The notes under the pieces are model-generated. The model was given only the letters and a program-made list of their open reading frames with translations, was not told the DNA's origin and made no database searches. Made by a program: the position numbers and the translations under genes. This document shows positions 10,601 through 47,144 of a DNA stretch of 64,000 bases, piece by piece; within the stretch, counting starts at the first letter, position 1, and every line of letters begins with the position of its first letter. This stretch comes from Krasilnikoviella flava (GTDB taxonomy: Bacteria > Actinomycetota > Actinomycetes > Actinomycetales > Cellulomonadaceae), in NCBI RefSeq assembly GCF_900167525.1, contig NZ_FUZQ01000003.1:62001-126000 (forward strand), in the 5' to 3' direction.

Positions 10601-10945
10601 ATGGCCGACACGACCGCACCCGCCGCCGCCCTCACGCCGGACGCCCAGCACGAGCATGACGGGCCGCACGGCTACGCCTCCGACAAGGAGGCGTACCTCA
10701 AGCGCATGCGCCGCATCGAGGGACAGGTGCGCGGCATCGCGCGCATGATCGACGAGGACGTGTACTGCATCGACATCCTCACCCAGGTGTCCGCGGTGAC
10801 CAAGGCCCTGCAGGCCGTGTCCATCGGACTCGTCGAGGACCACCTGGGGCACTGCGTCGTCGACGCCGCCCGCGCGTCCGAGGCCGAGGGCGCCGCGAAG
10901 GTCAAGGAGGCCGCCGACGCGATCGGCCGCCTCGTCCGGTCCTGA
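10601..10945 (+). CDS. csoR: Copper-sensing transcriptional repressor CsoR
   Basis: A 114-residue all-helical repressor of the CsoR/RcnR family that releases DNA when it binds Cu(I). The three copper ligands of the family are present as Cys56, His81 and Cys85; their spacing (25 and 4) equals that of the Mycobacterium tuberculosis prototype (Cys36, His61, Cys65). The DNA-binding helix 'RMRRIEGQVRGIARMIDED' is intact. The first ~27 residues are a His-containing tail absent from minimal members. It is the first gene of an operon with an HMA chaperone and a copper ATPase and has its own operator. The start is probably leaderless: no ribosome site, and a -10 six bases upstream. Confidence 0.95.
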   Translation: MADTTAPAAALTPDAQHEHDGPHGYASDKEAYLKRMRRIEGQVRGIARMIDEDVYCIDILTQVSAVTKALQAVSIGLVEDHLGHCVVDAARASEAEGAAKVKEAADAIGRLVRS

Positions 10946-10984: not shown

Positions 10985-11362
10985 ATGAGCACCGTCACCA
11001 CCCTGGGCGTCACCGGCATGACCTGCGGCAACTGCGTCGCGCACGTCACCAAGGACCTCGCCGCCGTCCCCGGCGTCGTCGACGTGAGCGTCGAGCTGCA
11101 CGCCGGCGGCACCTCCGACGTCGCCGTCTTCTCCGACGCCCCGCTCGACGAGGCCGCGCTGCGCGAGGCCGTCGACGAGGCCGGGTACGACGTCGAGTCC
11201 GTCGCCGTCCAGACCGACGCGCTCGCCGCCCAGCAGGCCGCCCAGGCGCCGGCCCGCCAGGAGGCGCACAACTGCGCGTGCGGCTGCGGCGCCGGCGAAG
11301 CCTCCGCCACCGACGAGCCCGCGCAGAAGACCTACGACCTGGCCGTCCCCCCGCGCGCCTGA
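10985..11362 (+). CDS. Heavy-metal-associated (CopZ-like) copper chaperone with Cys-rich tail
   Basis: 125 residues. Residues 1-70 form a ferredoxin-like HMA domain with the metal site 'GMTCGNC' (Cys14, Cys17). It is followed by an Ala/Gln linker and a short cluster 'HNCACGCGAG' with three further cysteines and a histidine. Plain CopZ proteins end near residue 70, so the tail adds a possible second Cu(I) site. AAGGAG about six bases before ATG 10985 supports the start. It lies 39 bases after csoR and would carry Cu(I) to the ATPase downstream or buffer it. Confidence 0.88.
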   Translation: MSTVTTLGVTGMTCGNCVAHVTKDLAAVPGVVDVSVELHAGGTSDVAVFSDAPLDEAALREAVDEAGYDVESVAVQTDALAAQQAAQAPARQEAHNCACGCGAGEASATDEPAQKTYDLAVPPRA

Positions 11363-11568: not shown

Positions 11569-14010
11569 ATGAGCACCCCCACACCCTCGCCGGTCCAGCC
11601 GGCCGGGGCCACGCCACCGGTCCTCGAGATCGACCTCGCCATCGAGGGCATGACCTGCGCGTCGTGCGTGGCCCGCGTCGAGAAGCGGCTCAACCGCGTC
11701 GACGGCGTCACCGCCACCGTGAACCTGCCGCTCGAGAGCGCGCACGTCGAGCTCACCACGCCCGTCGACGACGCCGCGCTGGTCGAGGCCGTCGAGAAGG
11801 CCGGCTACGGCGCCCGCGTCACCGCACGGCGCGGTGTCGCCCCGCGGGCGCCGTCGGCCGAGCCCGTCGAGCACACCCCGCCGGTCGAGCCTGTCGAGAC
11901 CCGGGTCTCGACAGGCTCGTCCACCGACGCGACAGGCTCGACCAGCGAACCGACAGCCCCGACCATCAGCGGTGACGCACGCGGCGCGGACCTGCGCCGC
12001 CGGCTGGTCGCCTCCGCGATCCTCACCGTCCCGGTGGTCGCGCTGTCGATGATCCCCGCGCTGCAGTTCACGGGCTGGCAGTGGGTCGTCGCCGCGGCGG
12101 CGCTGCCGGTCGTCACGTGGGGCGCGTGGCCGTTCCACACGGCGGCGGCACGGGCGGCCAGGCACGGCGCCTCCACGATGGACACGCTGGTCTCGCTCGG
12201 CGTCGTCGCCGCGACCCTGTGGTCGCTGTGGGCGCTCACGCTGGGCGGCACCGGGGAGCTCGGGATGCGGATGCGGCCGTCGCTGATCCCGTCCGAGTCC
12301 GGCGGTGCGCCCGAGCTGTACTTCGAGGTCGCCGCCGTCGTGACGACGTTCCTCCTCGCCGGCCGCTACGCGGAGCACCGCTCCCGCCGTCGGGCGGGCG
12401 ACGCCCTGCGATCCCTGCTGGAGCTGGGCGCCAAGGACGCCGAGCGGGTGCTGCTGGCCCCGGACGGCACGCCCCGGACCCGGCCCGACGGCGGCCGCGT
12501 CACCGAGCGCGTCGCGGTGGCGGACCTCGCCGTCGGCGACGTGTTCGTCGTGCGGCCGGGCGAGAAGGTCGCCACCGACGGTGAGGTGGTCGAGGGAGCC
12601 AGCGCGCTCGACACGTCGCTGCTCACGGGCGAGCCGGTGCCGGTCGACGTCGGTCCCGGGGACGCCGTGACCGGCGCGACCGTCAACACGTCGGGTCACC
12701 TGCTGGTGCGCGCCACCCGCGTGGGCGAGGAGACGACGCTCGCGCAGATCGGGCGCCTGGTGTCGCAGGCGCAGACGGGCAAGGCCCCCGTGGCCCGGCT
12801 CGCCGACCGCATCTCCGCCGTCTTCGTGCCGATCGTCATCGCGCTGTCCGTGCTCACGCTGGTGGGCTGGCTGCTGGCGGGCGCGGACGTGCAGCTCGCG
12901 TTCACCGCCGCCGTGGCCGTGCTGATCATCGCGTGCCCGTGCGCCCTCGGCCTCGCGACGCCCACCGCGCTGCTGGTCGGCACCGGCCGCGGCGCGCAGC
13001 TCGGCATCCTCATCAAGGGACCGGAGATCCTGGAGTCCACGCGCCGCGTCGACACCGTGGTGCTGGACAAGACCGGCACCGTCACCGAGGGCCGCATGCA
13101 GGTCGAGCGCGTGCTCGTCCCGGAGCTGTCAGAGCCACAGGGGGCTATGGCCCCACGTGACTCTGACAACTCGGGCGGGACGGGGGCGGACGGCATCGGG
13201 ATCGGCACGCTGCAGGCGTTCGACTTCCGCGCCACGGCGGGCGGCGGCGTCGAGGCGGTCGTGCGGCGGGCCCACTCGGGCATCGCCGGGCTTGCCGCCG
13301 ACGGCGGGCTCAACGCCCGGCGGGTCCTCGTCGGGCAGCCGTCGTGGCTGACCGGGCAGGGCGTCGCGTTCGACGGCGACCTCGCGGCCGCGTTCGCCGA
13401 CGCCGAGGCGACGGGCGCCAGCGCCGTCGTCGTCGCGTGGGACGGCGCCGCCCGCGGCGTGGTCGTGCTGCGCGACCCGGTCAAGGCGACCTCCGCCGAA
13501 GCCGTGCGCGAGCTGCGCGACCTCGGCCTGCGGCCCGTGCTGCTCACCGGCGACGGCGAGGGCGCGGCCCGCGTCGCCGCCCGGGAGGTCAGCATCGCCG
13601 AGGAGGACGTGATCGCCCGCGTGCTGCCGCAGGACAAGGCCGCCGTCGTGGCCCGGCTGCGCTCGGAGGGACGCGTCGTCGCGATGGTCGGCGACGGCGT
13701 GAACGACGCCGCCGCCCTCGCCACGGCCGACCTGGGGCTCGCGATGGGCACCGGCACGGACGTCGCGATCGAGGCGAGCGACATCACGCTCGTGCGCGGC
13801 GACCTGCGCTCCGCCCCCGCCGCCGTCCGCCTGTCCCGCGGCACGCTGCGGGTCATCAAGCAGAACCTGTTCTGGGCGTTCGCGTACAACGTGGCGGCCA
13901 TCCCGCTCGCCGCGGCGGGCCTGCTCAACCCGATGATCGCCGGGGCAGCCATGGCCGCGTCGTCCGTCATCGTCGTCGGCAACTCGCTGCGCCTGCGCCG
14001 CGCCGGCTGA
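11569..14010 (+). CDS. copA: Copper-exporting P1B-type ATPase, with repeat-altered nucleotide-binding domain
   Basis: 813 residues. An N-terminal HMA domain (Cys30, Cys33 in 'MTCASC') is followed by eight membrane helices, the CPC metal site (Cys456-Pro-Cys458), the phosphorylated Asp500 in 'DKTGT' and the hinge 'GDGVNDAAAL'. Two palindromic repeats are translated. One encodes 'VEPVETRVSTGSSTDATGST' in the linker after the HMA domain. The other (13123-13172) lies about 20 residues after DKTGT, exactly where the helix with the conserved 'SEHP' motif is expected. No HP dipeptide is found between DKTGT and 'AGGGVEAVV', although His-Pro contacts ATP in this family. The enzyme may have altered nucleotide affinity. 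The rest of the protein is complete and in frame. Confidence 0.9.
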   Translation: MSTPTPSPVQPAGATPPVLEIDLAIEGMTCASCVARVEKRLNRVDGVTATVNLPLESAHVELTTPVDDAALVEAVEKAGYGARVTARRGVAPRAPSAEPVEHTPPVEPVETRVSTGSSTDATGSTSEPTAPTISGDARGADLRRRLVASAILTVPVVALSMIPALQFTGWQWVVAAAALPVVTWGAWPFHTAAARAARHGASTMDTLVSLGVVAATLWSLWALTLGGTGELGMRMRPSLIPSESGGAPELYFEVAAVVTTFLLAGRYAEHRSRRRAGDALRSLLELGAKDAERVLLAPDGTPRTRPDGGRVTERVAVADLAVGDVFVVRPGEKVATDGEVVEGASALDTSLLTGEPVPVDVGPGDAVTGATVNTSGHLLVRATRVGEETTLAQIGRLVSQAQTGKAPVARLADRISAVFVPIVIALSVLTLVGWLLAGADVQLAFTAAVAVLIIACPCALGLATPTALLVGTGRGAQLGILIKGPEILESTRRVDTVVLDKTGTVTEGRMQVERVLVPELSEPQGAMAPRDSDNSGGTGADGIGIGTLQAFDFRATAGGGVEAVVRRAHSGIAGLAADGGLNARRVLVGQPSWLTGQGVAFDGDLAAAFADAEATGASAVVVAWDGAARGVVVLRDPVKATSAEAVRELRDLGLRPVLLTGDGEGAARVAAREVSIAEEDVIARVLPQDKAAVVARLRSEGRVVAMVGDGVNDAAALATADLGLAMGTGTDVAIEASDITLVRGDLRSAPAAVRLSRGTLRVIKQNLFWAFAYNVAAIPLAAAGLLNPMIAGAAMAASSVIVVGNSLRLRRAG
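11883..11947. repeat. Family-1 repeat (copy 4) inside copA, one and a half elements
   Basis: GTCGAGCCTGTCGAGACC is followed at once by its inverse GGTCTCGACAGGCTCG, then by another half-arm GCGACAGGCTCGACC (11930-11944). All is read in frame in the linker between the HMA domain and the first membrane helix. Confidence 0.88.
13123..13172. repeat. Palindromic repeat, family 2 (copy 1), inside copA
   Basis: Arms GAGCTGTCAGAGCCAC (13123-13138) and GTGACTCTGACAACTC (13157-13172) pair with two mismatches, around an inner stem GGGGC-TATG-GCCCC. The 50 bases are translated without a stop. Copies 2 and 3 are at 35951-35992 and 36012-36052. Confidence 0.88.
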
Positions 14011-20033: not shown

Positions 20034-21013
20034 GGTCCGTCGGCGCGCCCCGCGGCACGACCGTCCGCGCCTCCGTCGGGGCGGGTGCGGCGATGCTGCT
20101 CGTCGGCACGTCGACGGCGGTCTCCGCGACCGTCGCGGACTACCCGGTCCTGGTCGGGCAGGCCCTGCGCTACGCGCTCGCCGCGGCGATCCTGCTCGCC
20201 GTCCTGCGGCACCGGCGGCCGCCCCGTGTCCGTCTGACGCCGCGCGACGTCCTGCTGGTGGCCGCGCTCGCCGCCACCGGCCTGGCCGGCTTCAACCTGT
20301 GCCTCGTCGAGGCGACCCGGCACGCGGGTCCCGCCATGATCGGCGCCGTCATCGGGGGCGTGCCCGTGGTCCTCGCCCTCGCCGGCCCGCTGCTGGAGCG
20401 ACGGCGCCCCGCCCCGCGCACCGTGACGGCCGCCGTCGTCGTCGCGCTCGGCACCGCCGTCGCCGCCGGGCTGGGCTCGGGCAGCCTCACCGGCCTCCTG
20501 CTGTCCGTCGGCGCGCTCGCCGGCGAGGTCGCCTTCTCCCTGCTCGCCGTCCCGCTGCTGCCGAAGCTCGGCCCCCTGCGGGTGGCCGCGTACCCCGCCG
20601 CGCTCGCCGCCCCCCTGCTGCTGGTGGCGGGCCTCGCCCTGGACGGCCCGGCGGCGCTGCGCCTGCCCACCCCCGGCGAGGCGGCGGCGTTCGTATACCT
20701 CGGCGCGGTCGTCACCGCGGCCGCCTTCTTCCTCTGGTACGACGCGCTGGGCCGGCTCGGCGCCGACCGCGCGGGCCTCTTCGCCGGCCTCGTCCCCGTC
20801 GGCGCCCTGCTCACCACCGTCGTGCTCGGGCTCGGCCACGTCGGCACGGCGGACGTCGCCGGCGCACTGGTCGTCGGCGCGGGCGTCGTGCTCGGCACGA
20901 CCCGTCGGTCGGACCTGCCACGCCCGTCGGGCCTGTCGGGACCCGGGTCTCGACAGGCCCGACCGGCGGGTCAGCCCGCGGACGCCCGCAGCGCGCGGAG
21001 CCCCTCCCGGTGA
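20030..21013 (+). CDS. EamA/DMT-family membrane transporter
   Basis: 327 residues with ten hydrophobic helices in two EamA repeats ('LVGQALRYALAAAILLAVL' in the first, 'GALAGEVAFSLLAVPLLPKL' opening the second), typical of drug/metabolite exporters such as RhtA or YdcZ relatives. It is translationally coupled to the SDR gene. After the last helix the reading frame runs through a family-1 palindromic repeat ('LSGPGSRQARPAG') and ends 43 bases inside the converging ATPase gene. The natural end of the protein was probably earlier, with the repeat having removed the original stop. Confidence 0.85.
   Translation: MRSVGAPRGTTVRASVGAGAAMLLVGTSTAVSATVADYPVLVGQALRYALAAAILLAVLRHRRPPRVRLTPRDVLLVAALAATGLAGFNLCLVEATRHAGPAMIGAVIGGVPVVLALAGPLLERRRPAPRTVTAAVVVALGTAVAAGLGSGSLTGLLLSVGALAGEVAFSLLAVPLLPKLGPLRVAAYPAALAAPLLLVAGLALDGPAALRLPTPGEAAAFVYLGAVVTAAAFFLWYDALGRLGADRAGLFAGLVPVGALLTTVVLGLGHVGTADVAGALVVGAGVVLGTTRRSDLPRPSGLSGPGSRQARPAGQPADARSARSPSR
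20929..20966. repeat. Palindromic repeat, family 1 (copy 5)
   Basis: GGGCCTGTCGGGACC and its inverse GGTCTCGACAGGCCC are separated by one or two bases. The element encodes the tail of the EamA protein and lies at the 3' ends of two converging genes, where a hairpin could end both transcripts. Confidence 0.85.
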
Positions 21014-35924: not shown

Positions 35925-35950
35925 GGCCCGACCCTAGCGACCCGCCGACC

Positions 35951-35992
35951 TGTCAGAGCCACGTGGGGGTATGCCCCGCCCTGGCTCGGACA
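35951..35992. repeat. Palindromic repeat, family 2 (copy 2)
   Basis: TGTCAGAGCCA and CTGGCTCGGACA are inverse with one or two mismatches, flanking GGGGGTATGCCCC. It lies in the divergent gap between the CopC-type gene and nadE, about 20 bases before copy 3. Confidence 0.85.
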
Positions 35993-36011
35993 ACTCCTGG
36001 GGCTCGCGACC

Positions 36012-36052
36012 TGTCAGAGCCACAGAGGGTATGGACCGTCCTGGGTCTGACA
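36012..36052. repeat. Palindromic repeat, family 2 (copy 3)
   Basis: TGTCAGAGCCA (36012-36022) and TGGGTCTGACA (36042-36052) form the arms, with GAGGGTATGGACC between them. It is in direct orientation with copy 2 and about 27 bases upstream of the nadE -10. Confidence 0.85.
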
Positions 36053-36090
36053 AGTCTCGCGGGCACGGGCAGCGTTCCTACACTCGGGGG

Positions 36091-47072: not shown

Positions 47073-47097
47073 CCGTGGTGGGGACGAGCGCCCTCTC

Positions 47098-47144
47098 GGT
47101 CGAGCCCGTCGGGACCAGGATCCCGGCGGGCTCGGCCACCGTGG
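47098..47144. repeat. Palindromic repeat, family 1 (copy 8)
   Basis: GGTCGAGCCCGTCGGGACC and GATCCCGGCGGGCTCGGCC are diverged inverse arms. It lies in the 107-bp gap before the LuxR-type regulator gene. The regulator's frame stays open through it, but the start is placed after it. Confidence 0.75.

Follow-up and report, generated by a model that had tools for sequence, protein, structure and literature searches.

When slippage or recombination deletes the DNA lying between two short direct repeats, one repeat copy is left behind. Among small palindromic repeats, Rickettsia palindromic elements (RPE) are described in PMC10969869 as short palindromes inserted in open reading frames (ORFs) and translated in frame, and repetitive extragenic palindromic (REP) elements, mobilised by REP-associated tyrosine transposases (RAYT), are treated in PMC3733652 as small dispersed hairpins, some of them within genes. 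In the copper-transporting P1B ATPases, the His-Pro (HP) motif, normally read as SEHP, lies in a helical hairpin of the nucleotide-binding domain (N-domain), and its histidine and a glutamate five residues earlier contact the nucleotide in the related structures covered by PMC5089723. Here we analyse a stretch of 64,000 nucleotides from Krasilnikoviella flava (contig NZ_FUZQ01000003.1, positions 62,001 to 126,000; hereafter the window), in which the copper ATPase gene copA carries a translated 50-bp palindrome where the HP helices are expected. We consider it probable that the HP helices were removed in frame between two copies of this element, leaving an impaired CopA, with copper tolerance depending on other systems.

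The HP-less copper ATPase and its palindrome

The gene in question is a P1B-1-type copper ATPase gene without the HP helical hairpin (11569..14010, forward strand), assigned from its ORF and from profile matches; the ORF encodes 813 amino acids and lies downstream of csoR-like and CopZ-like genes. The predicted protein exceeds the curated cut-offs of TIGR01511 (478 bits, cut-off 397) and TIGR01525 (518 bits, cut-off 346). An N-terminal CxxC HMA domain was identified with Pfam, and alignment showed CPC in the sixth transmembrane segment, DKTGT, TGD and GDGVND to be all present; the glycine-loop motif is kept as well. The SEHP motif of the N-domain, by which members of P1B-1 are recognised, is absent, and the protein is described here, from its sequence, as an HP-less descendant of CopA, short of a proven Cu+ ATPase.

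Downstream of the DKTGT phosphorylation motif (codons 13066..13080, forward strand, residues 500-504) lies the 50-bp palindromic element that marks the putative deletion scar. As the initial annotation had proposed, it is translated within copA: the sequence GAGCTGTCAG...CTGACAACTC occupies exactly 13123..13172 on the forward strand and reads in frame as ELSEPQGAMAPRDSDNS, forming CopA residues 519-535. The same annotation had placed it about 20 residues after DKTGT, and the measured distance is 19 residues from the aspartate of that motif (500 versus 519). The palindrome consensus matched the window once, with one mismatch, and gave no match in 100 shuffles. The strand from 13115 to 13180 folds into a hairpin of -39.6 kcal/mol (z -5.49), a stability reached by 0 of 200 shuffles. 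A candidate assignment of 13000-13300 to the Rfam family mir-770 was judged to be chance, with sub-threshold scores of 32.6 and 20.4 bits against a gathering threshold of 83. Reading frame and third-position GC continue uninterrupted across the scar.

No HP dipeptide was found between DKTGT and AGGGVE in the window CopA, in agreement with the earlier claim that none remains before AGGGVEAVV. SEHP is kept in all 17 same-genus CopA proteins examined, and HP, counted wherever it occurs within 110 residues after DKTGT, is present in 77 of 79 wider homologues (79 of 80 loci yielded a CopA segment; L104 was not found). The two exceptions, L122 (SEHF) and L132 (SEHS), are distant P1B ATPases, and in four of the 77 positive homologues the first HP reads VGHP, INHP, KGHP or SGHP; L055, from Isoptericola halalbus, represents one locus with G014, their DKTGT regions being identical, and is counted in both sets. 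The description of SEHP as invariant is slightly too strong. From LDKTGT to GGGVE the window protein spans 64 codons, compared with 83-133 in 17 relatives (G019 and 16 same-genus members; G034, measured to another end motif, was left out). A search of the genome assembly for the missing segment did not find it elsewhere, the best match being a different ATPase (56% identity, E 0.014).

Structure models show the same loss. The initial annotation had suggested aligning the protein with related CopA and modelling its N-domain, and had expected a helix to have been replaced without a break in the frame. In the AlphaFold2 model of the control, from Isoptericola halalbus, confident helices cover residues 36-47 and 53-68, with SEHP at 50-53; in the window model both helices are absent rather than displaced, and the element forms a low-confidence loop, with a predicted local distance difference test score (pLDDT) below 50 at residues 37-55. 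The sequence set used here numbered 60, made up of the window protein and 59 taken from the 79 homologues. In a structure comparison made with the window model only, the remainder of the ATP-binding domain keeps the fold of known CopA structures. Alignment and models agree that the repeat stands in the place of the HP helix, in an unbroken frame.

Element pairs in relatives and a candidate deletion

Of the five relatives nearest to the window in the copA tree, three (G004, G005 and G013) have copA genes in which two elements bracket the HP helices, in the same frame. The upstream site lies shortly past VERV and the downstream site just ahead of the GADG segment. The paired copies translate as ELS...D(N/S)S, except for the G005 downstream copy, which ends ERS, and copies within the same gene are identical at 33-37 of 42 bp. 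Their spacings of 138 bp (G005), 147 bp (G004) and 138 bp (G013) are all multiples of three, so that loss between the copies preserves the frame. G010 has a downstream copy only, which is degenerate, and G003 has no copA element; the downstream site is occupied also in G001, G007 and G014. In total, seven of the 17 same-genus relatives have an element at the downstream site, three at the upstream site and ten at neither. The G016 CopA (L043) holds a repetitive alanine/glycine-rich insertion at the downstream site in place of an element, which suggests that this loop tolerates insertions generally.

The right flank of the window element, GGGCGGGACGGGGGCGGACGGC (13173..13194, forward strand), agrees base for base, through all 22 positions, with that of the G005 downstream element. 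On the left, the junction falls at the upstream site, no more than one codon from where G005 and G013 have theirs, and matches no relative's upstream junction exactly. A single element with the right flank of the downstream site and the left flank of the upstream site makes an in-frame deletion the most likely origin. On this reading, a 50-bp single-phase hairpin would once have stood on both sides of the HP hairpin in the window's ancestor, as it does in the relatives, and the two copies would have recombined, or replication would have slipped from one to the other, so that one element was deleted together with the helices. Since both copies would have read in the same phase, as the relatives' spacings show for theirs, the deletion between them would necessarily have been in frame. 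The resulting CopA would keep its HMA, membrane, phosphorylation and glycine-loop motifs and lose the ATP-contacting glutamate and histidine. The suggestion that the repeat replaced the helix is thus right about position, the element standing where the helix was, and is best recast as a deletion between copies rather than an overwriting insertion.

Several observations weigh against this reading, among them the selection and mutant results given in the next section. The stem of the window copA element matches copies from its own genome at a mean of 21.3 of 30 positions, the other species' copies compared at 12.3-13.4, and the copA elements of G004, G005, G010 and G013 at 10-13 of 30. This comparison took in 12 of the 14 own copies (the copA copy being the query and a 41-bp copy omitted), 20 of 21 from G005 (a 43-bp copy omitted), 13 selected from 49 forward G004 matches and 12 selected from 48 in G013. 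In G013, G004 and the window, the copA stems find their best matches in their own genomes; the G005 copies are slightly nearer the G004 type. The own-type stem therefore means that the window element was not inherited letter for letter from pairs like those of the relatives, and either conversion to the resident type or separate or repeated insertions at these sites must be assumed. In the copA tree, the window, G005 and G010 are joined with support of 1.0, their internal order being unresolved (0.54), and the element-less G003 comes next (0.78); tree and substitution analysis alike omit the linker and variable columns, and G005 was used without its 3' part. G010 is as close to the window as G005, yet its one element is the degenerate downstream copy, and G003 lacks elements altogether although it belongs to this clade, which implies independent loss or gain of copies. 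Two ancestral copies were not directly seen in the window's own lineage. A hybrid, recombinant element was sought through arm mismatches, of which the window copy has four and 12 other own copies three to seven, making the test uninformative.

Function of the altered pump and rival readings

Pairwise ratios of nonsynonymous to synonymous rates (dN/dS) were 0.07 for the window and G005, 0.11 for the window and G010, and 0.07 for G005 and G010. Replacement and silent changes on the window branch stand at 9:35, compared with 5:48 for G010 (Fisher p 0.15), a proportion far below neutral and not significantly above that of G010, which gives no indication of prolonged decay. A wholly neutral branch is rejected (p 4e-12), and the share of it that could have been constraint-free is about 0.18 at most (95% bound). 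Judged by its substitutions, the window copA is under purifying selection and does not look like an old pseudogene, which implies that the loss of the helices is recent or is partly tolerated, the product being still useful. In isolated ATP7B N-domain, the H1069Q replacement left ATP binding unaffected in the work reported in PMC3203118, and two further studies cited there found weaker ATP binding with H1069Q.

These results lend something to the idea that the HP-less CopA is still a useful exporter, binding ATP through the glycine loop and phosphorylation domain (P-domain), perhaps with weaker affinity. We think this unlikely, as both ATP-contacting residues and the whole helical hairpin are gone, and, within the bound given above, a recent deletion could have come after all of the selection that is recorded. 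In addition, replacements in the remaining N-domain are enriched when G005 and G010 serve as reference (4:4 versus 5:31, one-sided p 0.04), an enrichment absent with two other reference sets (p 0.36 and 0.46). With two helices and two ATP-contacting residues missing, strong impairment is favoured: the HP-less CopA is probably strongly impaired in its use of ATP, and copper export by it is likely impaired. Copper tolerance would then probably rest on a CopB-type ATPase and other systems; a second P1B ATPase of this type, with CPH and SEHP motifs, is encoded at G000:C6:264330-266270 and may carry copper export.

A somewhat more doubtful alternative concerns the scar itself. If only the downstream element had existed, as in G010, one of the two nearest relatives, a deletion could have run leftwards from its left edge through the helices, in the manner of deletions next to mobile elements, with the frame kept by chance or by selection. 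The left junction, identical to none of the relatives' upstream junctions, would suit such an event, but a left end within one codon of the G005 and G013 upstream sites would then be a coincidence, and chance retention of the frame is one in three. We regard it as very improbable that the scar is an assembly or sequencing artefact in which two elements were collapsed and the true gene keeps SEHP. Collapsed repeats would look the same, but the 50-bp element is shorter than usual reads, the relatives' paired copies show 5-9 differences over 42 positions, the gene lies on a contig of 657 kb, the missing segment was not found elsewhere in the assembly, and neither the frame nor third-position GC is disturbed at the scar.

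The deletion between paired copies remains our preferred account, and with it copA would be a case in which nature has deleted a motif that heavy-metal P-type ATPases almost always keep, while its relatives suggest how this could have come about. It raises the questions of whether a P1B ATPase lacking the HP hairpin can function and of whether proteins are remodelled by small in-frame hairpin repeats through the removal of whole pieces, besides the addition of peptides. The broader proposition, that undescribed, single-phase 50-bp mobile hairpins of this actinobacterial family generate always-in-frame deletions when two of them bracket a protein segment and that the HP-less CopA still pumps copper, strikes us as improbable; if it were true, there would be at least one P1B ATPase in nature that can do without the HP hairpin.

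Upstream of copA lie a putative CsoR-type copper-sensing repressor gene (10601..10945, forward strand), adjoining copA in relatives too, and a gene for a presumably CopZ-like HMA chaperone with a Cys-rich tail (10985..11362, forward strand). The initial annotation had offered this chaperone as compensating for impaired export, a proposal that we reject: CopZ with the same or a similar tail stands beside SEHP-bearing CopA in six relatives (G003, G004, G005, G008, G009 and G013; the G010 CopZ was not recovered for this comparison). As the tail accompanies intact CopA, it did not arise as compensation.

The hairpin family and its likeness to known repeats

Copies of the element were searched as TGTCAG and CTGACA separated by a gap of 24 to 31, and the gap is exactly 30 in 13 of 14 copies in the window's own genome, in all but one of the 21 G005 copies and in every one of the 48 in G013; G010 yielded no copies by this pattern. 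As a control, the reversed pattern had no match in the own genome or in G005 and one per strand in G013. The 50-bp form occurs in 21 of the 121 family genomes and in 10 of 25 genera. The element has fixed 10-bp ends, GAGNTGTCAG and CTGACANCTC, and a 30-bp interior that varies between species. Covariation was examined in 35 selected copies from 19 genomes, in which only the inner stem is informative, length and ends being fixed by the search pattern. Stem cells are paired in 83.1% of cases, compared with 31.3-39.9% when slid, two-sided changes occur in 155 cells where shuffles give 73.5, and a covariation score of 0.380 compares with 0.137 for shuffles, neither value being reached by any of 500 shuffles. 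Two simpler counts do not discriminate: 14 of 14 variable pairs have two-sided changes (13.7 in shuffles), and pair types number 39 against 35.7 (60 of 500 shuffles). Stem pairing and covariation together indicate that the hairpin is kept while the inner sequence changes.

The copies that passed a coding test all share a phase, both the four from the own genome (13 of 14 copies examined, the 41-bp copy lying outside the fixed-length pattern) and the eight from G013 (48 examined, an undercount, as the second copA copy there fell below the coding threshold). The test is blind to the strand of the palindrome, and one locus, an aromatic amino-acid lyase, was scored opposite the Pfam-supported gene, with both strands in phase 0. 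Since phase 2 hits a stop in CTGACA and phase 1 is open, the phase preference looks like more than stop avoidance, on small numbers. Own copies lie in four genes with Pfam support, copA, an HrpA-like helicase (a name inferred from its domains), the lyase, where the copy sits just behind the lyase domain, and an AMP-binding enzyme. The last of these copies failed the coding test; the four own copies that passed it are the other three and L184. A regulatory hairpin selected in copA, such as a terminator or a site of mRNA processing, is highly improbable in place of a mobile repeat, because, for all the very stable fold and the failure of most copies in the coding test (9 of 13 own, 40 of 48 in G013), presence varies at the same copA sites, with ten of the 17 same-genus relatives lacking both, and copies occur in unrelated genes.

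Elsewhere in the window, at 35947..36056, two further members of the family stand in tandem with a spacing of about 61 bp, and such pairs recur in G004 and G013. One in G004 (C1 33838/33898; L152, L160, L168) has copies 60 bp apart that both read ELS, with high third-position GC in frame on the left side, and a frame constraint on these copies is possible; the other G004 pairs are mostly 61 bp apart among the matches listed. A palindrome of a different family, GTCGAGCCTGTCGAGACC / GGTCTCGACAGGCTCG, stands in frame in the linker between the HMA domain and the membrane part of CopA (11876..11922, forward strand), with similar copies at 20918-20964 and 47091-47137; the CopA linkers of G005, G010 and G003 are without it.

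For a mobiliser, the Y1 (IS200/RAYT-like) transposase profile PF01797 gave no match in the own genome, the only element-bearing genome searched, with the control positive in 5 of 14 genomes. An autonomous partner was sought in G013 only, through all GAGTTGTCAG sites, and no mobiliser was found; 55 of 56 sites are at the ends of element copies and one stands alone (718536). Four G013 end pairs 181-287 bp apart were rejected as a mobiliser, as they bracket a different inverted repeat. That repeat (L192-L195) reads GCGGGTTCAAGCGGTCGTCGCAACAC ..., with a run of N inside in three of the four. No report of such elements in Isoptericola or Cellulomonas was found in the open-licence literature, searched at listing level only.

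Compared with known systems, RPE and REP appear to be the nearest described kinds, and neither fits fully. Like RPE, the window family lies in frame within coding genes, but RPE are about 150 bp long with a conserved peptide, whereas the elements here are 50 bp with an interior that varies between species, and paired copies here appear to have removed a catalytic segment. Like the REP/RAYT palindromes, the family consists of small dispersed hairpins, some of them intragenic, but its ends are those given above in place of a GTAG or CGTC tag, and the own genome lacks the Y1 transposase. The window protein resembles the CopA of Archaeoglobus fulgidus (2b8e, 3a1c, 3a1e), 3rfu (presumably Legionella CopA) and human ATP7B in its HMA, CPC, DKTGT, TGD, GDGVND and glycine-loop motifs, and differs from them in lacking the HP motif and its two helices. 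As in deletions between short direct repeats, one copy remains at the window scar; the difference is that here the repeats would be single-phase intragenic hairpins, so that loss of the intervening sequence would always be in frame.
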